From a virus: 26,502 nucleotides of DNA. This document shows positions 9,701 through 25,533 of the stretch, piece after piece; within the stretch, counting starts at the first letter, position 1; every line of letters begins with the position of its first letter. The stretch lies in IMG/VR virus record IMGVR_UViG_3300030389_003789, positions 1 to 26,502 of that record. One strand, 5' to 3'. The notes under the pieces were generated by a model. That model saw nothing but the letters and a program-made list of their open reading frames with translations, made no database searches and was not told where the DNA came from. The translations under genes and the position numbers were made by a program.

Positions 9701-12700
9701 CTATTAACCTTGATGCAGGTGTTCCATATTCTGGTCAAAACAAATCATTTATTATATCTAAAAACAAAAAAGGTACTATACTTGGTAAGTTTATGTTTCA
9801 CAAAGCTGGTCCAGAACTATCTGAAGCTATGGAAAAAGCTAATAATGGCGAAGGTATAAACTTTTTAGCAATGAGTAGTGCTATTAAACAATCAGGTAAT
9901 AGAGAACCTGGTGATTATATTTACAAAAAAGGTCAACCATTAGAGTTAACAGGTGCTGCAAAAGAAATTATAGAAATAAGACCTGGAGATTTAAAATACT
10001 CACAATCAGTTATAAATGACCATAAAATGTTGGGTATGAATGAAAGCCAAACAAAGGTAACAGGAATTACTTTTGTTAAGCAAATGGGTACAAATTTGCA
10101 TCCAGATATGTATAGCAAGACAGAACAATCTACTATAAATAATATATTTAATGAATTATCTCAAAGGTCTTTTGATGGTAAAACAGAGATTAATAATTTA
10201 GTTAGAGAATATAATAGAAAGCCTTCTAAAGAATTAATAGAAGATATAATAGAAAACTTTGATGATGTAGGCGTTAAACAAATTGAAACAACTTTAAAAA
10301 CTCCTGGTAGTGAAAAACTTGCACAGGAAATGCTTCTAAAAATATTAAAGGTTAATAAACAAAATTTAGAACAATCTATAACAGAAGGTGAATTAACAGG
10401 TACAACAGCAGAAGAAGCATCTAGGAATTTAGTGGATTTTTATTCTACAGCTGATAATATTGTAAAACATTTGTCTAAATTAGACCAAGCATATCCTATG
10501 TTTTTTGACAAATATACAAAAAACTATGTGAATGATGCTGTAAATAGATTTGTAGGAGAAAGAGTTTTAAAACCTAAAGTTAAAAATGCTATAGTTGCAA
10601 GAATGAGACCTTATGATAAAGCGTTACAACAAAAGTTTCCAGAGCTTAATAAAAATGATGAAATATTTTATTTAGGAGATTTATATAAAGAAACACCTAT
10701 GTTTACTAATATACCTGGTCTTGCTAAAACAACGTTAGGTAAATTATGGTCATTAAAAGAAACTAATAATCCTAAGTATAGACAAAACAAAGAACAGTTT
10801 GAAGAAATATTTGAAGCTATCAATGTAAGAGTTCCACAAGACTCTCCATCTGGTGCGCAGGTACTTAAATTTAAAGGTTTTACTGGCATTAAAGACCATG
10901 GAGTATTATCTCACGGTAGGTCTATGGAAGCACAAGGCGGTGCTGACCTTGATGGTGATGAATCATTTATTTATTTTGGTGGTAGAAACAGAGATGGTGT
11001 AGGCGAAGGTATGAAACAATCTTGGAAAGATATGTATAAAGCACAAAAAAAAGAGTTTTATACGAAAGATGAAAAAGCTATAAAGGATGCTAAAGAACAG
11101 TACCGAGACCAAATAGTAGTTAATCCTAAAAATAGTAAGATAAATCCTCAATTTTTAAAACAAGTAAATACTAATCCTGAAGCCAAATATTCTCCTGTTG
11201 TTAGAGCATTTACAGGTTTAGAAACTGCATCTAATAGAGGTAAAATGGGACCTGTTGTTACAATGGTATCTAATATGAGAGGAGCATGGAGTTCTCTTCG
11301 TGCAAGTAAAGATAAATTTGAAATTTATCAAGAAGGCGAGTATAAAGATGGTAAGAAGTTTAGAATAACAATGGAGCCTAGAGAGCCTAGTGCTGAGCAA
11401 AGAGACTTAACAAAAGCTCTTGTAAACTTTACAGCTGACCCAGCTAATGAAGCTGGATTAATTAGTATACCAGAAATGCAAAGTCTTTTAATGAGAGCTT
11501 ATTATACAGGTAAACACGAAACATACAATCCTGCAAATAAAAAATGGTCAGAATTTCCTGTAATGCCTGAACAATTTAGAAAATTTACTAAAACAATAAA
11601 CCAAAGATATAAAGATATAAAAGATTTTAATAGTGCTTATTTTAGTAGAAACTTTGAAGCTGATAGAGCTTATTCTGCTTATGAAAAACAAGAAATGACA
11701 AAAAGAATAAATAAGTATGAAGAACCCGAAATGACTACTTTTACTATGAAGTTTGCTAATACTTTAAAAGATGTTGATATGAATTTGTCTATATTTAATA
11801 GACTTGATTATAAAAGTTTAAAAAAGCTTCACGATAAACATAATGAATATGTTAAAAATTTAGATTTTTATAAAGAGCTTCTTGGTAGAACTGGTTTTAA
11901 AGAAAAATTTAGTGACCAAATAGATTTTGTATTAACTAATGATTTATTTGTTGAATCTACTTTAAAAAATACAGCTAAAGATGGTTTAGCTTTAATTAAT
12001 CAATTAAGAAAAGCTAAAATTGAACACAATATAAAAAAACCTAATGATGCAGTTGAAGTTGAAAACTATTTAAGAAAACTTGTAGATACATCTGAAGATT
12101 ATTTGTCAAATGCTTTTCACAATATTTCTACTTTAGAAAGAGTAATGGAAATATATCAGGCAAGTCGTAAAACAGACAAACCTTTAACTAGAGCTCTTAT
12201 GAAAAAAATAAGAAAAGAAGTAGAGCTATTAAAAGGTTTTAGTGCTTTTCAATATTCACAGAGAAGTAGAAAAGGTGATTTGTCTGCTATTGAATCTCAA
12301 AAACGAATGCAAGAAAAAAGAGAAGCTATAGAATTTTTTAAAGAAGCTGGTGTAGAGCCTCCTCCTGAATTAAAACTTCCTACTAGAAGAACAAAGATAA
12401 TGGACAATGCTCAAATAGATGCTAGGATAAAGAAATTTAAAGAATCTTTGCCTTCTAAATCTGCAAGAGATATGTTTGACACTTTATTTATAGGTTCTTT
12501 ACGTAGTCCAGAAGTGCAAAAAGCATTAGATAATGCTTTTAAAAATAATGTACCTCAAGATATAATAAATCAAATATTTCATGAAGGTACTAGAACAAAT
12601 ACTACTAAAGCTGCTTTTGATTCTAAAGAAATAAGTTCTGAAAATATTATTAAATTTTTTAAGACAAAAAACAAATACTATCTAAAATCTTTTGAACCTT

Positions 12701-15700
12701 ACAAAGAAAGTGAAGCAGATATAGCTAAATTTGAAAAGAAAGTAGAGCCTTTAGTTAATAAACGTAATATAAGATTGCTTGGTACTTTAACATCTGATTT
12801 TGACTCTTATAAAGGAATTACTCAACCTGGTAAAAAAATCTCCCCTGAAAATAAAAAAGTTGTACAAGAGCTTTTTGAACATTTAAAAATGTATTCTGAT
12901 GCAAAAGGAAAAGATATTAGCCAGTTATTAAGTGGTATATATGCAGGTATGGGAGACCCATTCGTAGATGTTGTTCCTAAAAAACTTAATCAAATGAACA
13001 TATCTGATTTTAAACTTATTAATAATTGGTTTAGACAAATACGTGAAGGCAATATGTTTCAACGTATGGAAAATTATGAAAATGCTTTAAAAAAAGCAGG
13101 CGTTAAAAAAAGATGGTGGTTATTGTTTCCTAAGCAAGTAAACTCAGAGCAAATGGCTCATGATATAAAGTTTTTACCTGCTGAAGGCTACTTTAAAACT
13201 AAAGATGTTACTCCTAAATTAGACAAAATGTATAGACCTACTTACTACGGTGAAGTATTACAAAACTGGATAGGAAGAACACAGGATTTAGCTCATGGTG
13301 TTGCTACTCAACAAATAGAAAGATTTAATGAAACATTTAAATATTTAGACCAAGTACCAGATGGTAGTGCTATCTGGAGATTAGGTGTTAGAAAAAGCGA
13401 ATTAAAACAATACGCTTCTACTAAAAAGAAAGTATATAAAGAAAACTGGGAAAAATCTAGAAAAAATAATGATTACTTCAAATTAAGAAAAAAGAAATAC
13501 AGCGTTGATTTTGGTGATGGTAAAAAAATCTATAGTGGTTACGAATTAGTTGATTTGACTATGAATAAACTTGAAGGTTTAATGAAAGAATATCATACTA
13601 GTATATCTGGAAAATTAGGAGCTTTGGCTAAATATAGAACAGGCTGGTATGACCCTGAACCTCCTAAAGGTAAACGTGAAAAAGGTCGTAGATATGAAAC
13701 TCAACCTATATTAGATTATAAATCTTTTATTAACGATTTAAATGTAGCTTATAAAAAAGGACAATTATTAAAATCTGGTGATAAAAAAGTTTCAGAATTT
13801 TTAGATATAGGTATTGATGGTATGAGACATATGGCTCGTTCTATGCTTGTAGATTTATTGCCTGTTACTGAATATACTAGAGTAATAAAAGGCAAAGAAC
13901 AAAAAATAGGTGTTAAAAAGTATTATTCTTTGTCTAAAGCTGAACAAAAACTTTGGAAACCTGATAAAGCTGGAACATCTAAACAATATGAAGATTTAAT
14001 AATTAGTACAACAGGTTATAGAGAAGGTTATTATCCTCACTATTTTTATAGTAATAAAGAGTTAAAAAAATCTCTTGAAAAAGAAAAGAAAGCTCTTGAA
14101 GATAATACTACTATGAATAAAAAACAAAAAGCTCACGAAATGGAAAAGCTTATATATAAATACAAACATAGAGTTGGTGATTGGGATTATGCTGATTTTC
14201 ATAATTGGAAAAAAATGGATGCAGATTTATTTAAAGAAACATTGTCTAAAATAGAAACAAAAGAACTTGCTAAAACAGAAAGCTCTAAGTTGCCTACTGT
14301 AGATATGCAATTTGGCAATATGAAAGCAAGAGACAATCATATGGCTGGATGGATGATTGAGCCTATGGCTGTTGAAATGTATATAAATAATGTGACAAAT
14401 ACTTACTTTAGACAACTTGGAAATATAATGTCTAGATATACTCTTCATAATATGAGAGATAGATTATATAATGAGATGGTTACAAAAGCTAATAAAAAAG
14501 ATAAAGATGAAGCTTCTAGAGTTGTTAATGGCATTGTTACTTTTTGGAAAAAATATGCAAGTGAGGCTATGGGCAATCCTGTTACTATATCTCAAGCTGA
14601 ACTATCTGACCCTAATTTAAAACTATCAGGCACTCCTTATGCTTGGTTTGCTGATAATTTAATGGCTAAAAAGCTTAATAAAATGGGAGAAAAATTAGGT
14701 TTTAAACAAAAAGATATGGTTTTAGGTGGCCTTGATGCTTTTAATGTTAGGTCTTTTGCTAACGTTGAAGGTAAATATCAGTTAGCTACTCTTATGACAC
14801 ATCCTAAAACTATGATAAACAATGTTTTTGGTGGTACTATACATACATTTCAATCTGTTGGAGGAGATGCTTTATTAAAAGCTAGAAATATAGATTACTT
14901 ACAAGGAATTAATCCTCAATTTAAAACAAAAGAAGATGTAAATAAATTTGTTAGAAAGTTTGGTATACAACCTGAAATGTTGCAACACGAGTTTGGATTA
15001 CAAAGAGAATTTAGACAAGGTAAAGCTAAAGCTTTTGTTAATGAATTAGTTGATATATCTAAAAAAGAAGGATTTAGAGTTAGTGATTTAGACATATCTG
15101 CTATTGCAAAAAAATATGGAGTTAGCAACGCTATTATGACTAAGGCTGCTAAGTTTATGACTATACCTGAGTTTGCATTAAGAAGAGATTCATTTATGGC
15201 TCATTATATTAAAGCTTACGAAAGATTCGGTGGTGCAATTACAAATCCTGAACATCCTTATTTAATAGAAATAGCTAAAAAAGGTGTTAAAGCTACCCAG
15301 TTTTTATATAATGCTCCTTATCGTCCTGCATTTGCTCGTTCTGCATTTGGCAAAATGATGACAAGATTTCAATTATGGTCTTACAATGCTGTAAGATTTA
15401 GAAATGATGCAAGAAAAGCTGCTAAACTTTATGATTTTGCTCCAGGAACTGAAGCTACTAAAAGGTTAGAAAGAATATTAGCATTAGATATGCTTATTAT
15501 GGCTCTTTCTGGTGTGTTTATGTATTCATTATTTGAACAAACATTACCAGCTCCTTGGAACTGGTTACAAGATTCTGCTGAATGGATTTTTGGAGATGAA
15601 AAAGAAAGAGATAGAGCTTTCTTTGGTATGTATCCTACAGCTATAGCTCCATTACAAATGATTACTCCTCCTATAGCAAGACTTCCAATATCTGCTATAA

Positions 15701-15942
15701 GACAATTTGCTGAAGATGATTACACTAAATTATCTGATTATTATATGTGGACTATGCTTCCTTTTGGTAGGATTTTAAGGGATACATTCCATCCAGAATC
15801 TGGTATTATAAACAATCCTATGAGATTACCAGAAAAAGTTGCTGGATTTCCATTAACAGGACTTGCTATAGAAGCTTCTAAAATTAAGAAATCTGATAGA
15901 CAAGTACCTATTCCAGGTTTTGTTTCTAGTAAAGAGGATTAA
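6748..15942 (+). CDS. 3064-residue virion megaprotein with RNA-polymerase-like DxDGD motif
   Basis: This is a giant polyvalent protein, probably packaged in the virion and injected. It has an AGGAG site and an ATG at 6748. Residues 60-260 include several hydrophobic Gly/Ala segments ('LGHLIGFAPGILAGPLSLGG', 'FFSGAVAGGVF') that could be membrane-active. Around 970-1050 lies a segment with 'VDGAIIV' and 'FLAMSSAIK' (Lys1047). Arg-Val-Pro follows at 1361-1363 and 'GGADLDGDES' with D1400, D1402 and D1404. In cellular RNA polymerase beta', an Arg-Pro segment sits about 35 residues before the Mg-binding DFDGD, a very similar spacing. Residues 1500-2900 are long charged helical regions, with a 'GYYPHYF' motif near 2425. 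Near 2910-2930 there is one probable membrane segment. It is therefore a candidate double-psi-barrel polymerase of the YonO/crAss-gp66 kind. The exact domain borders, and whether it is active, are unknown. Confidence 0.6.
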   Translation: MAEVQQFAPILSKQQTKNYIKAYDNRPHRFNESDLERIRQHAQYHNVPFYEGDFSIIDAVGHAASGFFEGFTTLNVSKKAPDNTYEAIAKNLGHLIGFAPGILAGPLSLGGRALAKTALTKSNILLDASKFLAGKKGLPLLVAEKYITPRAAKLSSSLINAGTSSKSKAMQEASAFLLSGKAKHIAEGAFNLGTASALSSWQGGVDSMIDSFFSGAVAGGVFRTIGNQINAGSPRAEKFARGLAGSIFMGVPSTLRGATTPEQVYEYLMGAYFGGSERPWTVARAMPIAQKVREKALKSDDPVQSKLMDPRVLYEKWDTLAPEVKKEVLKITEGPGFAGGNAEQIEATINEVYNEAVRKGMAPARKEIEAQGKDIRTEVFKEAAKEQTRQVQTVVKKTLKKAGIKYKPDERQFYVLTTGQKGTQAEALKSAKKSGIASVETVFPAQRERGKADLPVTLPRQELVKSNQAIEKAVKSLNELGEKVNLANLNEYARDGIRRDYRNVEFSKQVVAVDTINPKMTATRGLSKYAVQMAINANKRVDIYDKTKGWLKYDKDKKRFVTTAVVPELGARTAFFGKKALDATEKMALQSMFDKYEKIGFKQEIAKEVEKKEDTLELDTNNIRDIGESSSSFIDNKMSFLMNQYLRPELKKTIKSIDDVNAKIIETTKVSGELALDYLDRGSTKNRSYEWVEAVEEKSGIEIPQALKNKMRQWVAVQNQGEVVRFINAEEAPPGLFYAKKRAASKVELTDKENPFSLGGKSKLVIEPKKPFKYAILDAINIEGKEYDLSKFEFQRSLEGVPPNTIRSERMYFLNNVIKKMDKKGYHMYGGVGDKDRIVFVEYHPNASKVKLPKFPPSIYTEAKNRFLMDKAMHDKAARSIIAHEEAMNGLPISEMVGKKGKFIQNAVEANKRAQIWFTNGISGDKEFINNPKRVGNLNLSKEGNYKTSLIADPKKVKNILNKLNIELPQHVDGAIIVTDKVLDAINLDAGVPYSGQNKSFIISKNKKGTILGKFMFHKAGPELSEAMEKANNGEGINFLAMSSAIKQSGNREPGDYIYKKGQPLELTGAAKEIIEIRPGDLKYSQSVINDHKMLGMNESQTKVTGITFVKQMGTNLHPDMYSKTEQSTINNIFNELSQRSFDGKTEINNLVREYNRKPSKELIEDIIENFDDVGVKQIETTLKTPGSEKLAQEMLLKILKVNKQNLEQSITEGELTGTTAEEASRNLVDFYSTADNIVKHLSKLDQAYPMFFDKYTKNYVNDAVNRFVGERVLKPKVKNAIVARMRPYDKALQQKFPELNKNDEIFYLGDLYKETPMFTNIPGLAKTTLGKLWSLKETNNPKYRQNKEQFEEIFEAINVRVPQDSPSGAQVLKFKGFTGIKDHGVLSHGRSMEAQGGADLDGDESFIYFGGRNRDGVGEGMKQSWKDMYKAQKKEFYTKDEKAIKDAKEQYRDQIVVNPKNSKINPQFLKQVNTNPEAKYSPVVRAFTGLETASNRGKMGPVVTMVSNMRGAWSSLRASKDKFEIYQEGEYKDGKKFRITMEPREPSAEQRDLTKALVNFTADPANEAGLISIPEMQSLLMRAYYTGKHETYNPANKKWSEFPVMPEQFRKFTKTINQRYKDIKDFNSAYFSRNFEADRAYSAYEKQEMTKRINKYEEPEMTTFTMKFANTLKDVDMNLSIFNRLDYKSLKKLHDKHNEYVKNLDFYKELLGRTGFKEKFSDQIDFVLTNDLFVESTLKNTAKDGLALINQLRKAKIEHNIKKPNDAVEVENYLRKLVDTSEDYLSNAFHNISTLERVMEIYQASRKTDKPLTRALMKKIRKEVELLKGFSAFQYSQRSRKGDLSAIESQKRMQEKREAIEFFKEAGVEPPPELKLPTRRTKIMDNAQIDARIKKFKESLPSKSARDMFDTLFIGSLRSPEVQKALDNAFKNNVPQDIINQIFHEGTRTNTTKAAFDSKEISSENIIKFFKTKNKYYLKSFEPYKESEADIAKFEKKVEPLVNKRNIRLLGTLTSDFDSYKGITQPGKKISPENKKVVQELFEHLKMYSDAKGKDISQLLSGIYAGMGDPFVDVVPKKLNQMNISDFKLINNWFRQIREGNMFQRMENYENALKKAGVKKRWWLLFPKQVNSEQMAHDIKFLPAEGYFKTKDVTPKLDKMYRPTYYGEVLQNWIGRTQDLAHGVATQQIERFNETFKYLDQVPDGSAIWRLGVRKSELKQYASTKKKVYKENWEKSRKNNDYFKLRKKKYSVDFGDGKKIYSGYELVDLTMNKLEGLMKEYHTSISGKLGALAKYRTGWYDPEPPKGKREKGRRYETQPILDYKSFINDLNVAYKKGQLLKSGDKKVSEFLDIGIDGMRHMARSMLVDLLPVTEYTRVIKGKEQKIGVKKYYSLSKAEQKLWKPDKAGTSKQYEDLIISTTGYREGYYPHYFYSNKELKKSLEKEKKALEDNTTMNKKQKAHEMEKLIYKYKHRVGDWDYADFHNWKKMDADLFKETLSKIETKELAKTESSKLPTVDMQFGNMKARDNHMAGWMIEPMAVEMYINNVTNTYFRQLGNIMSRYTLHNMRDRLYNEMVTKANKKDKDEASRVVNGIVTFWKKYASEAMGNPVTISQAELSDPNLKLSGTPYAWFADNLMAKKLNKMGEKLGFKQKDMVLGGLDAFNVRSFANVEGKYQLATLMTHPKTMINNVFGGTIHTFQSVGGDALLKARNIDYLQGINPQFKTKEDVNKFVRKFGIQPEMLQHEFGLQREFRQGKAKAFVNELVDISKKEGFRVSDLDISAIAKKYGVSNAIMTKAAKFMTIPEFALRRDSFMAHYIKAYERFGGAITNPEHPYLIEIAKKGVKATQFLYNAPYRPAFARSAFGKMMTRFQLWSYNAVRFRNDARKAAKLYDFAPGTEATKRLERILALDMLIMALSGVFMYSLFEQTLPAPWNWLQDSAEWIFGDEKERDRAFFGMYPTAIAPLQMITPPIARLPISAIRQFAEDDYTKLSDYYMWTMLPFGRILRDTFHPESGIINNPMRLPEKVAGFPLTGLAIEASKIKKSDRQVPIPGFVSSKED

Positions 15943-18080: not shown

Positions 18081-18241
18081 AATTGGTAATTCCTGCAACT
18101 TCCAGCCAGGCAATCCTCTATGGGTTGTTTTTTAATAGCTTTAGTATTACTATGATATAAGTAGCTAAATAGATATTTGATTTTATTTAAAGCTAAACAG
18201 TTAGCTACTTGATTATTAGAGTTTTTATGCTATTACCAATT
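18081..18241. repeat. Noncoding segment bounded by a 10-base inverted repeat
   Basis: The segment between the HNH gene and the structured leader has no credible gene. It is bounded by AATTGGTAAT (18081-18090) and ATTACCAATT (18232-18241); the right arm touches the HNH stop codon. A second perfect pair, AAGTAGCTAA (18159-18168) and TTAGCTACTT (18201-18210), lies inside, along with a CCTG/CAGG hairpin near 18092-18110. A TTGCAG...TAATAA pair with 16-base spacing on the minus strand (from about 18097 down to 18072) is a weak promoter candidate. Possible roles are an origin-like site, an RNA or the scar of a mobile HNH element. Confidence 0.4.
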
Positions 18242-18747
18242 TAAAAGTCTCTGCTTGACATTTTTCTAAGAACGTACTTTCTAAGTTCTCCGTTTTGTCT
18301 ATCAAGCCATTTTAATAGTTTTCTAAAATTTCTATCTGTTAAAGGTCCTTTTCTTGTGTTACATCTTCCACATATCATCTGTAAATTATCAGGAGTTGAA
18401 TTACCACCCAAAGAAAGAGGTAGAATATGGTCACATACCATATTACTAACAAGCAATTTACAATCGCAATAGCAACATTTTTTTCCATAAACTCTATATA
18501 AAAGTTCTCTAACTTCTTCAAGTGATATATTAAATTCGACTTCATATTCTTTACTCCTTCTTTTCAATGTCGACCTAAGTGTAGATGATTTTTTCATCAA
18601 TCTGTGAAACGTTTTTTTAGCAAACGTTCCATGGTGTCTCTTTAACTTTTTATTAAATTTTTGTTCCCAGATAGTAAGCCTATTAGGGGACTTGCGCCCC
18701 CTTTTTGGCTTATAGTATCTTTTTTTCTTATGCTCTTCCAGCTTCAT
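18241..18747 (-). CDS. HNH endonuclease
   Basis: This is a 168-residue free-standing HNH nuclease. Residues 1-70 are strongly basic and helical, likely DNA-binding. The HNH fold follows: C91 and C94 (CCYC), D106-H107 ('CDHILPLSLGG'), N121 ('NLQ') and C126/C129 with Asn130 ('CGRCN'). All the expected metal and structural-zinc ligands are present. Such genes in phages are often homing endonucleases but can also serve in packaging or restriction; here it stands away from terminase genes, which favours a homing or selfish role. The ATG overlaps the upstream 68-residue gene by 20 bases, with a GAGGT site. Confidence 0.85.
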   Translation of the reverse strand: MKLEEHKKKRYYKPKRGRKSPNRLTIWEQKFNKKLKRHHGTFAKKTFHRLMKKSSTLRSTLKRRSKEYEVEFNISLEEVRELLYRVYGKKCCYCDCKLLVSNMVCDHILPLSLGGNSTPDNLQMICGRCNTRKGPLTDRNFRKLLKWLDRQNGELRKYVLRKMSSRDF

Positions 18748-18934
18748 CTAGCCATACCTCTATTGGTTTTACTTTAGATAAGTATAACTGACATTCAAAC
18801 TTATACAATCCAATTACAAAACTAAATCCATCAGATTGCTTTCCGTTTACTCTAATTATACCTATTTTTACAAAGCTTAATAATATAAGAAAAAACCTAT
18901 CTTTTAACAAAGCTATTTTTATTAACCATTCCAT
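18728..18934 (-). CDS. Unrecognised 68-residue protein
   Basis: This small protein has a hydrophobic, possibly amphipathic N-terminal helix (residues 1-30, 'MEWLIKIALLKDRFFLILLS') and then a beta-rich part ('FSFVIGLYKFECQLYL'). I do not recognise it. An AAGGAG site lies inside the end of the primase-helicase gene, and the ATG overlaps that gene's stop by 13 bases, so translation is probably coupled to the helicase. It may be an accessory replication protein, but nothing in the sequence proves that. Confidence 0.55.
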   Translation of the reverse strand: MEWLIKIALLKDRFFLILLSFVKIGIIRVNGKQSDGFSFVIGLYKFECQLYLSKVKPIEVWLDEAGRA

Positions 18935-20688
18935 TGTGTTCTCCTTAATCTAAATGACGGTGTCCATTCGACTTCAGTATCAAATAGTTCTCCATCGGTA
19001 TTTTTAAATAATCTAACAGCTCTAGACGCTGAATTTGATTGACCATTAAGACCAATCACTTTTCTAGATGCATTCTCTATTGCGCCTGACCCTTTACCTG
19101 CATACAAATCAAGCACTTCATTCCGACTGTATTCTCTACTTACTTGCGATATTTGGATAACTATCATATCGTTATTTACTGCCATATTAGATAGTCCATG
19201 AGATATATATTTAATCTTTTCATACTCACCTCTATAACTAGAAGGTGTGTCTACAAGGTCAATATAATCTACAATAACTAAGGATGGTTCTAACTCTCTA
19301 ACTTTCTCTGCTATCTTATCAAGAGTTGGAGAAATAGTTTGAACCATTAAATGCGATAGTTTATCTTCATTTTCTTTGTATAGCTCTGCGTAATTATCGT
19401 TAGCTTCTTGCTTACTAACGCCAGATACTATTTGTAGGTGTCTTCTGTGCATATACCAAGATGACAGCTCTAAACTAAGAAACAATGTAGGTATTTGCCA
19501 TTCTTTAACAATTCTATCATTTACAAAGTCTACACCAAGTGCTAAATTCTGAGCAAATGTAGTTTTATTAGAACCTGTTGGTCCAAATATAGTAACTAAT
19601 TCGCCTGGATATATAACTGATTCTTTGTCTATTCCTAAGGCTCTACCTAAGTCTATAGTTTTTCCACTAAAATCAGTATTTAGTCTTTCGTGTAATTCAC
19701 TTTGCATATCATTTGATGATTTAACATCTATCATATAGTCTTTCTTATTAAAGAATATACATTGTGTTTTACAATGCTCTGACATAACAGAATCTTGACA
19801 ACCATATTTATAGTTTCTATTATATACATTTTCTACCATTTCCATTATTTCTTTTTCTGGCATACTTTTGTTATTCCAATGAAGCATCATAACTTTAGCA
19901 TAATGACTAGGAATGCCGTGTCTTTTACAATGACTAACTATCCTTAATGCTGTTATATGCCTACTACCTTTCTTTGCTCCTTGGGCTAACATTGATTGTA
20001 CACAAGGCACTATTTTAGTTGGTTCCGATATTTTATTAAACACTTGAACATCAGGAACGTCTTCTTTTACAGTATGCTCTAACTCTCCATCGCCTTGTAA
20101 TCCTAGATATTTATAATCACTACGATTAACTTTGGCTAATTTGAGTATATCAGCTGCATTTAGATTCATAACCTCATCTCTATATAAAGGTATCTTATAT
20201 AGGTTTGTCTTTTGGTTAATAGTATGCTGAACTCTATAAATACCAGTTCGCATATATATGGATGAATCTAAATCAGGTATTAAACTTTTAAGTGTTTGTT
20301 TTACCATATATGGCAAATCAACACCAGATTTAAAGTTAAATAACCCACCAGCTAAATCAATATGGTATCCAGAGCCAGAAAAGTAACATTGGAAACTTTC
20401 TTCCGTAATGTCGGCCTCTTCTAGCTCTAGAACAACACCTCTCAAGACATCTAAAGTTTTCTCATCTGTGTAACCACCTTTATCAATATCAATAGGTATT
20501 TTGTCAATGTATCTAACACCAAAGTAATTCTTTAATGAACCGTTATCTTCTACATATTTAAGTGCTTCTTCATCATATAGATATACACTTCTGTATAATG
20601 CATTTTCGTTAATGAATTTACTTAAGTCATTTTTATTAATCAAATACCCTCTATTGCCAGGTGTTCCTTTAGCTATCTCGACGTACAT
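18922..20688 (-). CDS. Primase-helicase fusion (AEP primase + Cys-rich domain + DnaB-like helicase)
   Basis: This 588-residue replication protein makes primers and unwinds DNA at the fork. Residues 1-170 look like an archaeo-eukaryotic primase: D67 and D69 ('IPIDIDKGG'), 'FSGSGYHI' (103-110) and the basic strand 'RTGIYRVQH' (147-155). Residues 227-312 resemble the PriL C-terminal domain: Cys at 229, 297, 306 and 310 with the arrangement P-C...Y-G-C...C-x3-C, a likely Fe-S or zinc site. Residues 360-588 are a DnaB/RecA-type ATPase with Walker A 'GPTGSNKT' (369-376, Asn replacing the usual Gly before Lys) and Walker B 'LVIVDY' (D474). It overlaps the SSB-like gene by one base (TAATG). Confidence 0.8.
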   Translation of the reverse strand: MYVEIAKGTPGNRGYLINKNDLSKFINENALYRSVYLYDEEALKYVEDNGSLKNYFGVRYIDKIPIDIDKGGYTDEKTLDVLRGVVLELEEADITEESFQCYFSGSGYHIDLAGGLFNFKSGVDLPYMVKQTLKSLIPDLDSSIYMRTGIYRVQHTINQKTNLYKIPLYRDEVMNLNAADILKLAKVNRSDYKYLGLQGDGELEHTVKEDVPDVQVFNKISEPTKIVPCVQSMLAQGAKKGSRHITALRIVSHCKRHGIPSHYAKVMMLHWNNKSMPEKEIMEMVENVYNRNYKYGCQDSVMSEHCKTQCIFFNKKDYMIDVKSSNDMQSELHERLNTDFSGKTIDLGRALGIDKESVIYPGELVTIFGPTGSNKTTFAQNLALGVDFVNDRIVKEWQIPTLFLSLELSSWYMHRRHLQIVSGVSKQEANDNYAELYKENEDKLSHLMVQTISPTLDKIAEKVRELEPSLVIVDYIDLVDTPSSYRGEYEKIKYISHGLSNMAVNNDMIVIQISQVSREYSRNEVLDLYAGKGSGAIENASRKVIGLNGQSNSASRAVRLFKNTDGELFDTEVEWTPSFRLRRTQWNG

Positions 20689-21287
20689 TATAGATTACCT
20701 AAAGCACTCTGGTCCATAGATGGTTGAGAAACTTCACCTTCTACAAACTCTTTTAAATATCCTTTAGATTTCATCCATTTAACGTCATCTTCTAACTTTG
20801 CTTTGTTTTCTATGACATTTTTATATACTTTAGATAATACTCTAGTATATGCTTTCCCACCTGGAACTTTAGGCTGTTCTTTATAAAAGTAACCTAAATA
20901 TTTTAAATCAGGTGTATCTGTTCCATTAGCAATAACAAAGTTATCATTTAAATATTTTGCAATATCTGGTATTTCTTGTCCATCAGCTGTTTCCCAGCCT
21001 CCATCTACATTAATACCAGCATCACATCCTATTTGGTCAAAGAAATGATACAATCTTTTTAAACCATTGCCACCTGTAATCTTTCCACCTACTTTTTCGA
21101 AAGAACCTTTAATAGCTAATGGTCTATCATAATCACTTCCTTTTTGTTTTACAAGTACTTCAATAAATAAATCAGCCCAATCAAACTCTCCTGACCTATC
21201 TTTAAACTCTAATATTCCAAACTCACATACTCCTGTAAAGTTTGAATAATTATCACTACTTGTTGTTTCTGGTTTAAATATCGCCAT
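20688..21287 (-). CDS. Probable ssDNA-binding protein partnered with Sak4-type recombinase
   Basis: This 199-residue protein lies between the Sak4-type ATPase and the primase-helicase, the usual place for a phage SSB. Residues 10-75 are beta-rich with aromatic residues ('FGILEFKDRSGEFDWADLFIEV'), consistent with an OB-like fold. A helical segment 'GGNGLKRLYHFFDQIG' follows, and residues 130-199 form a helical/disordered tail. The C-terminus is not the acidic tail of bacterial SSB. Identification rests on gene neighbourhood and a general resemblance to proteins I associate with Sak4 operons. The ATG has a strong AAAAGGAG site although it overlaps the upstream stop by one base. Confidence 0.5.
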   Translation of the reverse strand: MAIFKPETTSSDNYSNFTGVCEFGILEFKDRSGEFDWADLFIEVLVKQKGSDYDRPLAIKGSFEKVGGKITGGNGLKRLYHFFDQIGCDAGINVDGGWETADGQEIPDIAKYLNDNFVIANGTDTPDLKYLGYFYKEQPKVPGGKAYTRVLSKVYKNVIENKAKLEDDVKWMKSKGYLKEFVEGEVSQPSMDQSALGNL

Positions 21288-21961
21288 TATTTACTCTCCT
21301 TTTTATATATATTATTCCATGTTAACTCTATCTCTTTGCCTCTCAAATGAGGACTTCTACTACCTGCTTCTAAGGCTTCATTAGCTTGAAATGATACCAT
21401 TAACTTCTTGTTTTCATCATCTCTGTAAACGTAACCTATAGCATCACAATCTGCCATTAACATGTTCTTTAACTTTCCTGTTAAATCCAAGCTTTCTGGC
21501 TCAACTATAGCTTTACTATCTACAACAGCTCTAGCCCATTTCCTATGTCCGATTATTATCACATGAGGAAATATCTCTTTTAGTATGTTTACTGTATTAA
21601 GAACTTTTTCTCTAACCATAGAAAAACCTTTACCAAATGCTAGGTCTTGTACAGCTGATACTCCTTCTTCTTCACATACTGCTTTCTCTGCCCATATAGC
21701 TATTTTATCTATTGTATCTATCGCAGCATACTTAAACTCGTGTCCATCTTGAGCTTCTTTTAATAACTTTATTAGGTCTTCTCTACTACTTACTGTTTCT
21801 ACATATCCATCTATCATATTTGCACCACCTTCTGTGTCAATTATTAAACAATCTTCTAACTGACTTAAAGCTGTAGTTTTACCTACTTTTGGTGCTCCAT
21901 ATAATAGCATTGTTTTTGGATTCTGAGAGACAGCTTTCCTTTTGACTTTTTTTAATGCCAT
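21287..21961 (-). CDS. Sak4-like RecA-fold ATPase (AAA_24 type recombinase)
   Basis: This 224-residue ATPase promotes single-strand annealing or strand exchange in phage recombination and replication. Walker A is 'YGAPKVGKTT' (residues 21-30), Walker B is 'YAAIDTID' (D82), and a sensor-like 'VIIIGHRKWAR' follows. The compact RecA core without an N-terminal domain, the Asp-Thr-Glu-Gly-Gly motif at 42-46 and the end 'ELTWNNIYKK' fit the phage nucleotide-binding/Sak4 group. There is an AGGAG site before the ATG. It is the first gene of the replication block, 79 bases after the E1-like gene with a stable RNA hairpin between them. Confidence 0.75.
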   Translation of the reverse strand: MALKKVKRKAVSQNPKTMLLYGAPKVGKTTALSQLEDCLIIDTEGGANMIDGYVETVSSREDLIKLLKEAQDGHEFKYAAIDTIDKIAIWAEKAVCEEEGVSAVQDLAFGKGFSMVREKVLNTVNILKEIFPHVIIIGHRKWARAVVDSKAIVEPESLDLTGKLKNMLMADCDAIGYVYRDDENKKLMVSFQANEALEAGSRSPHLRGKEIELTWNNIYKKESK

Positions 21962-22040: not shown

Positions 22041-22706
22041 TCATCTAACCAAGGTATTTTTATCTATACACATTGTTGGAAAATGGAATGATAAAAACTC
22101 CTCAAATGGTTGAACAGTAACCAACTTTCTTACAGCATTAGCGATAAAACTACCAGACATATTACTACAATAGCTTGTCGCCTTCATATTACAAGGTTCT
22201 TCGCTACCTTCATCATCGCTGTACCATATTTCTTTATACTTTGCCAATGTAGGCTTTAGTATAACATATTGTTGATAATGTTCAGCTCCCATTCGACCAT
22301 CTATAAGAGCTAGTGGCATACTTTCACGCCACCCCATTATTGCTTTGACTGCTTGTAATCTAGATTTCATACTATCAAAACCTAAAATAATTATATCATT
22401 ACTATTCATATAAATATAATTATCAAACAATCTATCGTCACACATTACTTCAGCTGAATCATTAATATCTAATATTTTAGATTTTAACATATCAACTTTC
22501 TTATGACCTACATCATATAATGTATATTGTGACACACCTACATTTCCCGTATCAACTTTGTCATTATCATACAAACAAAAGTTTTCTGCACCCATTCTAA
22601 CTAGTTGGGTAGCTGCGGCACTACCTATAGCACCGCAACCTAGTATATGATAATTAAATTCATTTAAGTTGTCTACAAGACCTCTTGAACGCATATTAAT
22701 AGCCAT
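22041..22706 (-). CDS. E1/ThiF-like Ubl-activating enzyme
   Basis: This 221-residue adenylating enzyme is predicted to activate the C-terminal Gly of the nearby ubiquitin-like protein with ATP. Motifs in order: Arg6 and Arg8 near the start; the nucleotide loop 'GCGAIGS' (23-29); 'LYDNDKVDTGNVGVSQY' (45-61) with D47/D49, N55 and Q60; 'DVGHKKV' (65-71); 'GFDSMKSR' (109-116); and 'DGRMGAE' (136-142). Possible catalytic Cys residues are C172 and C180 in the segment after 165. It is a minimal E1: no ubiquitin-fold domain and no rhodanese domain. It overlaps the JAB gene by 11 bases with a GGGGAGG site, so the two are co-translated. No thiamin or molybdopterin genes are nearby. Confidence 0.85.
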   Translation of the reverse strand: MAINMRSRGLVDNLNEFNYHILGCGAIGSAAATQLVRMGAENFCLYDNDKVDTGNVGVSQYTLYDVGHKKVDMLKSKILDINDSAEVMCDDRLFDNYIYMNSNDIIILGFDSMKSRLQAVKAIMGWRESMPLALIDGRMGAEHYQQYVILKPTLAKYKEIWYSDDEGSEEPCNMKATSYCSNMSGSFIANAVRKLVTVQPFEEFLSFHFPTMCIDKNTLVR

Positions 22707-23601
22707 ACAGACCTCCCCATTTATGCTCGAAAGGATTTAAAGCTCCTTCAAGCTCGTTTTTAACATTATTATCATCAAATTCAACAAGCTCATCTGGCAT
22801 TGCTGTCATTAACAGATTCAATACCTCATCAGCTGTTTCTTTGAATGTTCTCATTCTAAATGGAACACTTCTTTTCTTGGCTTCTTTATTTACATCAGCA
22901 ACTTTTTTCTTAAACTCACCAAACTTTATAGTACCAGATACATAATCATCTTGCATTGATTCTATAGCTTCTAACAATAGATTATAATTATCTTCGTGTT
23001 TATGTTTGGTAGGTTTCTTACTCCATAGATTCTGTTGATAATGTTGCCACCCTTTACCATATGTAGCAACTTTATTATCACAAAGCTTTTCATATTGCTT
23101 TTTCATAGCTTTTGTAATATTTATCTTTGGTGTTTCTCTTTCTATTGTAAGAGTAGTATCTATGTGTTGCTCAATAGGTAAACCGCTATTTTGCCAGAAG
23201 CTGACTCTAAACAGATATTCTTCTTTAAGATTAATCACTAACGCTAAAGAATAACTTGTATTCTTCCAAGCTTTAATCTCGTTTTCATCTGTTCCAGACC
23301 AGAATGCTCCCATTGTATGATGTGAATGCCACCATACAAACTTCATATTAGGGTTATTATACTTCATACCATACTTCATCATGTATTCGCTAACAGCATC
23401 ACCATTAAGTTCTGTATTTGTCCCACTATTTTCTTGTTTTAGGATTTCTACATCACCAACTTTTATTCTACCATCTTTTTGTGGTACTGCTGTCATTAAC
23501 CCTGATATTTCATTCTTATCTTCTTCATAAGCTATTGTAGCCCATGCTTGTAACTTATACCAGTCATCTTCTAATATGTAAAACATATCCTTAAGTTCCA
23601 T
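22696..23601 (-). CDS. JAMM/JAB-domain isopeptidase
   Basis: This 301-residue zinc metallopeptidase is predicted to cleave the ubiquitin-like protein from its targets. The full JAMM site is present: E31 ('NEISGLM') and H92-S93-H94, then seven residues, S102, two residues and D105. The JAB domain covers about residues 1-150. Residues 150-301 are a helical extension that I do not recognise, possibly substrate or partner binding. A strong AAAGGAG site is embedded in the end of the E2-like gene, one base separates the stop and start codons, and the E1-like gene overlaps its end. There is no NlpC/P60 domain, unlike tail-tip JAB proteins such as lambda K. Because the Ubl already ends in Gly-Gly, removing conjugates is a more likely job than precursor maturation. 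Confidence 0.88.
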   Translation of the reverse strand: MELKDMFYILEDDWYKLQAWATIAYEEDKNEISGLMTAVPQKDGRIKVGDVEILKQENSGTNTELNGDAVSEYMMKYGMKYNNPNMKFVWWHSHHTMGAFWSGTDENEIKAWKNTSYSLALVINLKEEYLFRVSFWQNSGLPIEQHIDTTLTIERETPKINITKAMKKQYEKLCDNKVATYGKGWQHYQQNLWSKKPTKHKHEDNYNLLLEAIESMQDDYVSGTIKFGEFKKKVADVNKEAKKRSVPFRMRTFKETADEVLNLLMTAMPDELVEFDDNNVKNELEGALNPFEHKWGGLYGY

Positions 23602-23602
23602 T

Positions 23603-25168
23603 TTATCTCCTTTCTGAGCTATAAGCCCACATTTTAGTTAATTTCTCTATGTCTTCAGTTGTTTCTTTCTTTACATCATCTGATTTTTTATTAGTTATTT
23701 CAATAAGTTCTTTATTTTCTAACCATTTAATTAAATTATCAGTATAATAAAAAGAAGACAACATTTCTTCAGTCATTTCATATGCTTGTCCAGCTTGTTT
23801 GTCAAAACAATGATAATACATTTTGTTAAAAATCATATCACACATTCCTTTTTTATCAAAACCATCATCATTTAAGAAAAGCCAATATTTAATATCTACA
23901 TATTTAAAATATCTTGCTATCTCTGAGCTTATTGCTTGCATATCATCTTCTGATATTTGCTCTAAATTATTAACAATATCAGTATAATATTCTGTTATCA
24001 TTAAAGCCATAGCTTGTAGTTTAAAACCACAATCTGAATTTAAAACATTTATTGTTTTCTTATTTCTAATGTAATGACTAGAACTATCTCTGAATTGACA
24101 TTCAATATCATCATATGATTTAATAATAAACTCAGCTCTATTTTCCTCGTTTAACATTAAATTATCAGCATATCTTTCTAATCTTCTTTCTGTAAATGCT
24201 AATACTGATGATTGAGATTGACACGCAACATATTCTTCGCTAAACTCTTTAGGCATACCTAAATGAGCCATATGAGGTTGATTGTATGGGTTTGAATATT
24301 TTAGATTGTAATACTGAGCCCATTCTAATAAAATAAATGCAAAACTTAGAAGCTCATTATTCCTAAGTGCTTTATTTATATCTTCAAAGTATTTATCAAA
24401 ACATACACTACCATATGCTGAACCTCTACTAGATATATATGGATGCAAAAGATTTAACATTGAATCAATTTTACCGTTAGCATTAAAATTACTATTATTT
24501 AATCCTAATTTTCTTCTAAGGTCAATATTAAGTATTAAATGCATTCTATCTAAATCTATTTTTTGGATTGATTTATCACCATCAAACACATTTAATTGTA
24601 AACCTACTAAACTTACATCATAATACAGTTGAGGATTTCTATTTGTTATTTTGTCAAAATAAGGAACAATTAGCACTTTTTCATTCGTTGCTTCATAAAC
24701 TGTTTCACATTGTTTTATGATAGTTTCTGTAAATGTTTTGACTTTTTCTTTAAATTCATTAATATCAACATCTTTAGAAACACCCATTCTTTTAAGCTTA
24801 TTTCTTTCATATTCCATATCATTAGTCATTCTTTTTATGTAACCTAAATAATTTACTCTATCTGTAGTTCTATGTAATAAATTATCTAAACCATTTGTCT
24901 TTTTATGTAAATAAAGTCTGTTATATATAAGTTCTTTTACTTTATCATAAGTTTTTGGTTTCCAGTTCCATTTATTTGTTACTTCTATATTGTCAATACC
25001 TTCTGATTCTAAACATCTATTAATATATTCTAATTTTTCATAGAATAAATCTTGAGGTCCAGTTGCCAACATATTTACTTCTTCTTGATTCATATTATCA
25101 AGTTCTGTTAAATTACTTACTTTTACGTCTTGTATTCCGTTAAAATAAGTAAATGTATTATCTGCCAT
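23603..25168 (-). CDS. E2-like ubiquitin-conjugating-fold protein (predicted)
   Basis: This 521-residue protein is predicted to carry the activated Ubl as a thioester and pass it to targets. After a helical N-terminal region (1-160), strands at about 165-215 are followed by 'LHPYISS' (H242, P243), then 'YGSVCFD' with Cys256, then a helix and 'YSNPYNQP' (291-298). This order mirrors the E2 core: HPN, G-x-C-L-D around the catalytic Cys, then helix and a Pro/Asn loop near the end of the fold. Residues 300-521 are helical and unrecognised. A strong AAGGAG precedes the ATG, and the gene sits between Ubl and JAB. The E2 call is inferred from motif and context, and is weaker than the E1 and JAB calls. 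Confidence 0.6.
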   Translation of the reverse strand: MADNTFTYFNGIQDVKVSNLTELDNMNQEEVNMLATGPQDLFYEKLEYINRCLESEGIDNIEVTNKWNWKPKTYDKVKELIYNRLYLHKKTNGLDNLLHRTTDRVNYLGYIKRMTNDMEYERNKLKRMGVSKDVDINEFKEKVKTFTETIIKQCETVYEATNEKVLIVPYFDKITNRNPQLYYDVSLVGLQLNVFDGDKSIQKIDLDRMHLILNIDLRRKLGLNNSNFNANGKIDSMLNLLHPYISSRGSAYGSVCFDKYFEDINKALRNNELLSFAFILLEWAQYYNLKYSNPYNQPHMAHLGMPKEFSEEYVACQSQSSVLAFTERRLERYADNLMLNEENRAEFIIKSYDDIECQFRDSSSHYIRNKKTINVLNSDCGFKLQAMALMITEYYTDIVNNLEQISEDDMQAISSEIARYFKYVDIKYWLFLNDDGFDKKGMCDMIFNKMYYHCFDKQAGQAYEMTEEMLSSFYYTDNLIKWLENKELIEITNKKSDDVKKETTEDIEKLTKMWAYSSERR

Positions 25169-25199
25169 TTTATTCTCCTTTATTTAATCTCTGTTTAAT

Positions 25200-25312
25200 T
25201 AAATGAGAGAATGCCTTCGTTTTGCCTATATAATCATAACCTAATAATCACTTTATTTTACGAATAAAAAGGACTTATTGAGTGTCTTCTCGGGACTTAC
25301 ATCTCTCATTTA
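25200..25312. repeat. 11-base inverted repeat in the Ubl-E2 gap
   Basis: TAAATGAGAGA at 25200-25210 and TCTCTCATTTA at 25302-25312 are exact reverse complements. They enclose 91 noncoding bases in the 167-base gap between the Ubl and E2-like genes. The enclosed part has no gene with a ribosome site. In the minus transcript this would be a closed RNA domain ending about 30 bases before the E2 start. A protein-binding DNA palindrome is the alternative. Confidence 0.45.
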
Positions 25313-25319
25313 AAGTTAT

Positions 25320-25336
25320 ACCCTAATAATTAGGGT
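25320..25336 (-). terminator. Hairpin directly at the Ubl stop codon
   Basis: CCCTAA-TAA-TTAGGG (25321-25335) is a perfect six-base-pair stem with a three-base loop, extendable by one A-T pair into the stop codon. No T-run follows on the minus strand, so it is not a standard intrinsic terminator. It could protect the 3' end of a short Ubl message or partly halt transcription, giving more Ubl than enzymes. Confidence 0.4.
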
Positions 25337-25533
25337 TATCCACCTACTTTATTGTTACTTGCATAAGCAACAACTTCATCTTCTGATAGTTCATAGTCGT
25401 TATTTCTAACTGTGCCTTGAACCATTACTTTAGCATCTGTTGGAATGCTTAGTTCATTTCTTAACTCACCTACTGTTGTAGATGTTATTTCTTGAGAAAC
25501 GAACTCACCGTTTAATAATAACTTGATAGTCAT
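25336..25533 (-). CDS. Ubiquitin-like protein with C-terminal Gly-Gly (beta-grasp)
   Basis: This is the predicted modifier of the conjugation set. ATG at 25533 is chosen: AGAAAGGAG lies just upstream, whereas a longer frame to 25632 lies over the end of the preceding gene and has no good site. The 65 residues fit a ThiS/MoaD/ubiquitin-like beta-grasp: strand 2-7 ('TIKLLL'), 'NGE' turn, strand 10-17, helix 20-29 ('TVGELRNEL'), strand 'AKVMVQG' (34-40), 'YELSEDEVVAYA' (47-58) and the tail K62-V-G-G65. The chain ends exactly at Gly-Gly, so no processing is needed before adenylation. Its only other Lys residues are K4 and K35, possible chain sites. E2-, JAB- and E1-like genes follow it. Confidence 0.85.
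   Translation of the reverse strand: MTIKLLLNGEFVSQEITSTTVGELRNELSIPTDAKVMVQGTVRNNDYELSEDEVVAYASNNKVGG

Follow-up and report, generated by a model that had tools for sequence, protein, structure and literature searches.

What does a marine phage do with four neighbouring genes that resemble the parts of a ubiquitin-like protein modification system? The window, which is the whole 26,502-nucleotide stretch of IMG/VR virus record IMGVR_UViG_3300030389_003789, carries these genes as open reading frames on the minus strand in the order Ubl-E2-JAB-E1, with one base between E2 and JAB and an 11-base overlap of JAB with E1. A preliminary description of the sequence had given this layout and proved correct to the base; its placement of the cassette next to replication genes was likewise borne out, the adjoining genes encoding a Sak4-like protein, a primase-DnaB helicase and an HNH/endonuclease VII-like nuclease. 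The features, all on the minus strand and numbered by window position, are as follows.

25336-25533, minus strand: Ubl, a 65-aa ubiquitin-like modifier with C-terminal NNKVGG (GG codons 25339-25344)
25199-25313, minus strand: RNA hairpin with a long outer stem and interchangeable inner modules, in the Ubl-E2 intergenic gap (25169-25335)
23603-25168, minus strand: E2-like protein, 521 aa, with predicted catalytic Cys256 (codon 24401-24403) in HPYI...GSVCFD
22696-23601, minus strand: JAB/JAMM metallopeptidase, 301 aa, with E31, H92, H94, S102 and D105
22041-22706, minus strand: E1-like ThiF-fold adenylating enzyme, 221 aa, with GCGAIGS and predicted catalytic Cys172 (codon 22191-22193) in CxxKxT
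21287-21961, minus strand: Sak4-like AAA/RecA-type annealing protein, the next gene downstream (phrog_124, E = 3e-32)
20688-21287, minus strand: replication-module gene for a 199-aa protein of unknown function, conserved in position
18922-20688, minus strand: primase-DnaB helicase (PF03796 and phrog_19)
18241-18747, minus strand: HNH/endonuclease VII-like nuclease (phrog_1035 and PF14279)

Conservation was followed across distinct marine-type loci related to the window, the residue counts (55, 66, 77 and 79) referring to those loci in which the sequence concerned is present. The Ubl was modelled as a beta-grasp (pLDDT 85.6), and its Foldseek matches in the PDB were the archaeal MoaD/ThiS-like protein Mth1743, ThiS, TtuB and ubiquitin (probability 1.00, best E = 3e-4). 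Pfam ThiS was matched by 5 of 15 Ubl homologues (best E = 1.6e-4); a Ubl profile gave chance matches only against PDB sequences. The tail reads [NDT]K[VT]GG in all 55 loci, and in 17 of these further residues, which vary, follow the GG. Model, fold matches, tail conservation and ThiS matches together uphold the beta-grasp protein with a Gly-Gly end that had been proposed. The proposed ThiF/E1 enzyme was confirmed by a Pfam ThiF match above cut-off (E = 1e-17). It carries the nucleotide-binding residues and the predicted catalytic cysteine: Cys172 was found in 79/79 loci, and GxGxxG, D47, K70, D111, R116 and C172 are invariant or almost so in both the marine-type clade and the crAss/Flavobacterium-type clade described below. 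The best NCBIfam matches of the E1 were ThiF models, all the same well below the ThiF/MoeB equivalog cut-offs (72 versus 159 bits for NF006395, 52 versus 152 bits for TIGR02354); because these cut-offs were missed and no thiamine genes were seen, thiamine biosynthesis was rejected as the function.

The intact JAMM active site (E, HxH, S, D) also held up, its residues being present and invariant across loci, with the His/His/Ser/Asp set found in 77/77. JAB matches to Pfam Prok-JAB and JAB fell slightly short of cut-off (E about 1e-4), and the best PDB sequence matches were to RPN11 (E = 1e-5). The E2-like protein, whose residues 242-258 are HPYISSRGSAYGSVCFD, has Cys256 in 66/66 loci, in the context HPY...VC[LF][DSG]. 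It had no E2 family match in Pfam, NCBIfam or PADLOC, and its profile gave chance matches only against PDB sequences. The fold of this protein had been named beforehand as a check on the whole reading, and the outcome was suggestive: in searches with the model (pLDDT 84.8), the UEV (E2-variant) domains of TSG101 were the top PDB folds, at a non-significant E of 0.6. The model at most suggests an E2 fold around Cys256. A BFVD fold search linked the protein, by name, to the 435-aa crAss protein cr128_1; a second viral fold match, A0A1B0WLX5, was set aside as a candidate Fpv protein because the link was by length alone. The four-part composition is therefore well supported, with the E1 standing on Pfam, the Ubl on its fold, the peptidase on its residues and weak family matches, and the E2, more tentatively, on an invariant cysteine motif, gene order and fold matches that are non-significant.

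The gap between Ubl and E2 holds a hairpin whose stem is paired in 231 of 242 cells across 22 sequences, several pairs having changed on both sides. The mean folding z of these gaps was -2.9 (n=37 gaps), and the hairpin had no Rfam match. It may have a role in the cassette.

The cassette is not peculiar to one odd phage; it is widespread, hundreds of further phages having the four genes in this order, and a fixed part of the replication module. Among 85 distinct related viral loci of the marine type, each detected gene followed the order Ubl-E2-JAB-E1, and none of the 52 complete loci had another order. The same order occurs in a diverged cassette of the crAss/Flavobacterium type (82 loci, 73 complete), which adjoins replication genes in phages available in culture, namely crAss-like phages of the gut (Steigviridae) and phages of Flavobacterium. 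Because both sets of loci conserve the gene order and the residues, the cassette is not a product of chance. The genes of the diverged cassette are currently annotated as hypothetical, metalloprotease, ThiF or thiamine biosynthesis. The crAss001, DAC15/17 and Fpv phages share with the window the four genes, their order beside replication genes, and homologous E1 and JAB proteins; they differ in a Ubl with a K-x-x-SG end and a long C-terminal extension, in an E2 motif of HSH...C[LTI]G, and in an E1 about 28% identical. With an SG end in place of GG, followed by an extension, the crAss-type Ubl could be matured in another way, or might serve as one domain of a fusion.

Profile comparisons between the clades make homology firm for E1 (probability 99.8, E = 3e-29) and JAB (E = 3e-9). 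For Ubl the case is good (E = 7e-5 versus 0.27 for a reversed control, with larger alignments) and for E2 it is suggestive (a weak link in the larger alignments, P = 0.014); comparisons of small alignments gave no link for either. In a tblastn search of 50,697 annotated phages, the E2-like and JAB proteins found nothing, and E1 was the only bridge to the crAss/Fpv phages. The sole match in 84,980 bacterial and archaeal genomes was a crAss-like phage fragment. Within these scans, the cassette is restricted to phages. No description of it was found in the literature searched, which covered few subscription papers or preprints.

E1/JAB lie upstream of the primase-helicase in 51/51 relatives with room upstream, so that in this lineage the cassette is fixed, at a core position of the replication module. 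The 199-aa protein of this module had no family match in Pfam or PHROG searches, and the host was not predictable from the primase-helicase or from a tail-region protein, both of which had distant matches only.

The cassette would work like the Bil, Bub and PRTRC systems, named earlier as its relatives in composition, and by the tests run it belongs to none of them: family cut-offs were missed and architectures differ. BilABCD, a bacterial anti-phage system (ISG15-like), likewise encodes Ubl, E2, JAB/DUB and E1 together. BilD, however, is an E1 with inactive and active adenylation domains (PMC11354881), whereas the phage E1 is a single 221-aa ThiF domain; Bil is bacterial and defensive, whereas the genes here are phage core genes, and the phage Ubl and E2-like protein matched no PADLOC defence model. 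Bub operons also combine Ubl, E1 and JAMM functions, and the E1 profile matched BubCD weakly (E = 4e-4); BubCD, which is in the PDB, is an E1-DUB fusion, unlike the four separate phage genes, and the nearest plasmid operon has a multiubiquitin protein where the phage has a single Ubl. PRTRC modules and operon class 6d (Iyer et al. 2006, PMC1779556) share four stand-alone proteins (Ubl, E2-like, JAB and ThiF/E1) with the cassette. Class 6d has an extra helical protein and E2s without a His before the Cys (PMC1779556), which in the phage proteins is usually preceded by HPY or HSH; PRTRC NCBIfam cut-offs were missed widely (14 versus 102 bits for PRTRC_A, 28 versus 145 bits for PRTRC_ThiF), and the phage Ubl and E2-like protein had no NCBIfam match. 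CBASS type II Cap2/Cap3 has a related E1 (PADLOC E1-E2 models, E = 4e-15) and a JAB partner. In Cap2, though, E1 and E2 are fused, and the protein acts together with a cGAS-like enzyme, whereas the phage proteins are separate, and no nucleotidyltransferase (CD-NTase) or effector was recognised near the cassette. Finally, the lambdoid/T1 tail-assembly proteins TAPI (a Ubl with a conserved Gly) and TAPK (JAB-NlpC) (PMC1779556) resemble the phage Ubl and JAB, but are tail genes without E1 or E2.

The pattern of divergence within the cassette bears on its target. E2 and JAB diverge fast, whereas Ubl and E1 stay constant and the replication proteins are near-constant. In one pair of loci, L003 and L006, the E2-JAB block is 53-90% identical between flanks 97-100% identical, and other close pairs diverge in the same E2/JAB-specific way. 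Chimeric assembly was rejected as the source of this swap because L005, from another metagenome, is much like L006 in its E2 and JAB distance from the window, and because other close pairs show this bias too. E2-JAB appears to be exchanged as a block. Fast, block-wise change in E2 and JAB against constant Ubl and E1 points to E2/JAB as a target-specificity unit, and such fast evolution favours a host-encoded target.

We therefore consider it probable that the cassette is a phage-borne pathway of Ubl conjugation and deconjugation, most likely directed at a host-encoded target early in infection or replication, in host takeover or counter-defence. JAB would trim precursor tails where present to expose K-x-G-G; E1 would adenylate the Gly end of Ubl and then take Ubl on Cys172, from which it would pass to Cys256 of the E2-like protein. 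The latter would transfer Ubl to an amine on the target, no separate E3 having been seen, and JAB could take it off again. Ubl and E1 would be the constant core, and E2 and JAB the exchangeable specificity unit.

The same chemistry could instead serve housekeeping regulation, with phage proteins of the replication complex or virion as targets. Fixation in this lineage next to the genes for the primase-helicase and Sak4, and a place beside the primase in crAss-like phages, fit such a role; for a conserved phage target, quick block-wise change of E2/JAB next to near-constant replication proteins is unexpected, and we regard this explanation as unlikely.

E1, Ubl and JAB by themselves would also fit a sulfur-carrier pathway, in which Ubl would serve as a carrier of the ThiS/MoaD/CysO type, E1 would form its thiocarboxylate and JAB would release the product, as Mec+ does for CysO. 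The 521-aa protein would in that case be a substrate enzyme that might, for instance, thiolate tRNA, DNA or a nucleotide while replication proceeds. The ThiS, TtuB and MoaD-like proteins among the best Ubl folds, the Pfam ThiS matches, the ThiF models that best match E1 and the adjacent replication genes all agree with this. Nevertheless, the invariant cysteine of the fourth protein lies in an E2-like context, that protein and the peptidase evolve fastest, unlike a metabolic enzyme, and the searches of neighbouring genes revealed no recognisable sulfurtransferase, rhodanese or thiolase, all of which makes a sulfur carrier improbable. That the phage carries the cassette as a defence against competing phages (superinfection exclusion of the Bil/CBASS kind) seems very improbable, despite the defensive nature of bacterial Ubl operons of like make-up (Bil) and the location of the nearest plasmid E1 matches in Bub-type multiubiquitin and CBASS operons, since the cassette occupies a core replication-module position and not an accessory locus, has no recognised effector or regulator and is essentially absent from the bacterial genomes scanned.

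Most Ubl pathways known from bacteria serve host defence or belong to plasmid modules. More tentatively than for the conjugation pathway itself, and with somewhat less than even confidence, we suggest that tailed phages across a wide range, from ocean to gut, keep a complete Ubl pathway as a fixed part of the replication module, tag host proteins with it and swap E2 and JAB among themselves as a matched specificity cassette, making the pathway a viral weapon against bacteria. The cassette is directly testable, because its carriers crAss001 and DAC15/17 are cultured with laboratory-tractable Bacteroides and the Ubl tail sequence predicts defined mass-spectrometry remnants. If true, the proposal would account for several crAss-like genes whose present annotations go no further than hypothetical, metalloprotease or thiamine biosynthesis, and would place ubiquitin-like tagging in the hands of the attacker.

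The virus record that supplied the window is 26.5 kb long, and its candidate ubiquitin-like (Ubl) cassette comprises the following features.

25336-25533, minus strand, Ubl gene
25169-25335, minus strand, Ubl-E2 gap with a structured RNA element (hairpin at 25199-25313)
23603-25168, minus strand, gene for a 521-aa E2-like protein
22696-23601, minus strand, JAB gene
22041-22706, minus strand, E1 gene

The four ORFs lie exactly where the preliminary description placed them, with the 1-base E2-JAB gap and 11-base JAB/E1 overlap that it stated. The replication-gene neighbourhood also holds: downstream, in the same direction, come a Sak4-like protein, a 199-aa protein, a primase-DnaB helicase, and an HNH/endonuclease VII. 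Facing this module is a 3064-aa ORF (6748-15942, plus strand) with one weak PHROG match only. Assignment of the last cassette gene to ThiF/E1 was borne out by a Pfam ThiF-fold match (E 1e-17), and JAB has all five residues of the JAMM peptidase claimed for it. JAB falls slightly below Pfam cut-offs (E about 1e-4), and its profile matches proteasomal RPN11 (E 1e-5). Searches of family models gave no direct match for the Ubl or the 521-aa protein.

A model built from 15 Ubl homologues is, as proposed, a beta-grasp (pLDDT 85.6); among solved structures it comes closest to an archaeal MoaD/ThiS-like protein, ThiS, TtuB, and ubiquitin (probability 1.00, E from 3e-4), and five of the 15 homologues match Pfam ThiS. 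The Gly-Gly terminus recurs as [NDT]K[VT]GG in 55 distinct loci, ending the protein exactly in 38 and followed by further residues in 17. These tails are mostly short (C, QA, IK, KKQ, WTYYIIR, VTIVRFKVKLK; one has about 60 residues). Modifier precursors processed by a peptidase have this form, with a constant diglycine before a variable tail.

The E2-like assignment is less settled. E2 enzymes carry the active-site motif HPN...C[LI]D, which the context of Cys256, HPY(I)...[VL]C[LF][DSG], resembles; every one of the 66 distinct sequences covering the site has Cys256. The model (pLDDT 84.8) has the E2 order of helix, beta-meander, HPY loop, Cys, and helices, and its nearest solved folds are TSG101/Vps23 UEV domains, with 8 of the first 43 places. 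However, the best E is 0.6, so that these matches support but do not prove an E2 fold, and the protein has no match among the E2 models of Pfam or NCBIfam. In E1, the nucleotide-binding residues and Cys172, within CxxKxT, are kept throughout both phage clades described below. Catalytic cysteines of E1 enzymes occur in PxCTxxxxP; the resemblance of the two motifs suggests a catalytic role for Cys172.

The cassette would work like bacterial Ubl cassettes, but by the tests run it belongs to none of the Bil, Bub, and PRTRC systems named as its relatives by composition. It missed the NCBIfam cut-offs for PRTRC; its E1 is single-domain and its Ubl and E2 lack a PADLOC match, unlike Bil; and it has neither the fusion nor the multiple Ubls of Bub. 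Comparison with CBASS operons rejected Cap2 as its identity. Passages of a 2006 survey of prokaryotic Ubl systems mention phages for tail-assembly Ubl and JAB proteins (PMC1779556). The main texts of the crAss001 paper and the 2021 crAss-like phage paper mention neither ubiquitin, ThiF, nor metalloprotease; a published description may exist beyond the open literature searched.

Searched by pattern, viral contigs yielded 452 E1 relatives and at least 399 for JAB; with a crAss-type query the count was 88. Among 85 distinct loci of the window's marine type, 52 have all four genes as Ubl-E2-JAB-E1 and the remainder part of that order, without exception; the crAss/Flavobacterium type has the full set in identical order in 73/82. 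Named carriers include crAss001, DAC15/DAC17, Kolpuevirus, and Kehishuvirus on Bacteroides and Fpv phages on Flavobacterium psychrophilum, in whose records the genes are labelled hypothetical, metalloprotease, or thiamine biosynthesis. Across the two clades, E1 (E 3e-29), JAB (E 3e-9), and Ubl (E 7e-5 vs 0.27 for a reversed control) are evidently homologous. For E2 the comparison reached only P 0.014, aligning Cys to Cys with a common [GN]PY motif; a viral fold search with the E2-like model lists a 435-aa protein of phage cr128_1, the length of that phage's E2-position gene. The crAss-type E2 motif is [S]H...C.G (Cys in 76/76), and the Ubl domain ends in K-x-x-SG, followed in all but a few by an extension. 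In phage cr106_1 (locus L041, 1671-2874) an HNH endonuclease gene within the Ubl gene cuts the domain, ending KIKSGKF, off from its C-terminal extension; the domain may still function by itself. One of ten crAss-type Ubl genes has a ribosomal L7/L12 C-terminal-like domain in its extension (Pfam E 5e-12), probably that of phage cr126_1 (L043, 2269-3195), judging from the extra insert there. After E1, loci L033-L043 encode a conserved protein of about 190-270 aa, longer in Fpv (e.g., L035, 8642-9454); found in crAss-like phages and absent from the marine type, it is a possible fifth component in the former. Among 84,980 bacterial and archaeal species (one genome each), a scan resting on two peptide patterns found one relative, a 3.7-kb MAG contig with the crAss001 gene order, which supports, but does not prove, restriction to phages.

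About 37 relatives also have the RNA element between Ubl and E2; it has no Rfam match. Its outer stem (TTAAATGAGAG/CTCTCATTTAA) shows two-sided compensating changes (e.g., loci L148, L157, and L021); some phages with E2 proteins <40% identical share nearly the same inner modules, and in others the modules differ. It may decouple Ubl expression from that of the enzymes. Copies or parts lie at other intergenic sites (L016, 8033-8136, the E1-Sak4 gap; L010, 5721-5827), which suggests a possible mosaic or mobile hairpin.

With the primase-helicase alone as query, independent of the cassette, E1 or JAB lay upstream in 51/51 loci with enough room, so the cassette is fixed in the window's lineage. 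Within it E2 changes fastest. The related loci L003 and L006 are 97-100% identical on both sides of the E2-JAB block, Ubl and E1 being part of these flanks, but 53-90% identical within it (L003, 9700-12300), and the block has sharp edges. This looks like a swap of alleles that took in exactly two genes; protein identities are 60% for E2, 98% for E1, and 100% for Sak4. L005, from a different metagenome, is about as distant from the window in E2/JAB as L006 is, with a near-identical E1. Further closely related pairs are biased in the same way: nucleotide identities for L151/L146 are E1 96, Ubl 99, E2 77, and JAB 84%, and for L138/L076 E1 91, Ubl 95, and E2 79%.

In the mechanism considered most likely, JAB would mature Ubl by trimming the tail after the diglycine, E1 would activate it via Cys172, the E2-like protein would carry it on Cys256 to a target, and JAB would remove it again. 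This target is more likely encoded by the host than by the phage, since the phage's replication proteins stay constant and E2 and JAB do not; that Ubl is attached to phage proteins is accordingly unlikely, if a serious contender. A sulfur-carrier pathway, despite the ThiS-like fold of the Ubl, seems more improbable still. Returning to a modifier aimed at the host, we read E2 and JAB as a putative matched specificity unit, recombined or diversified on a constant Ubl-E1 core.
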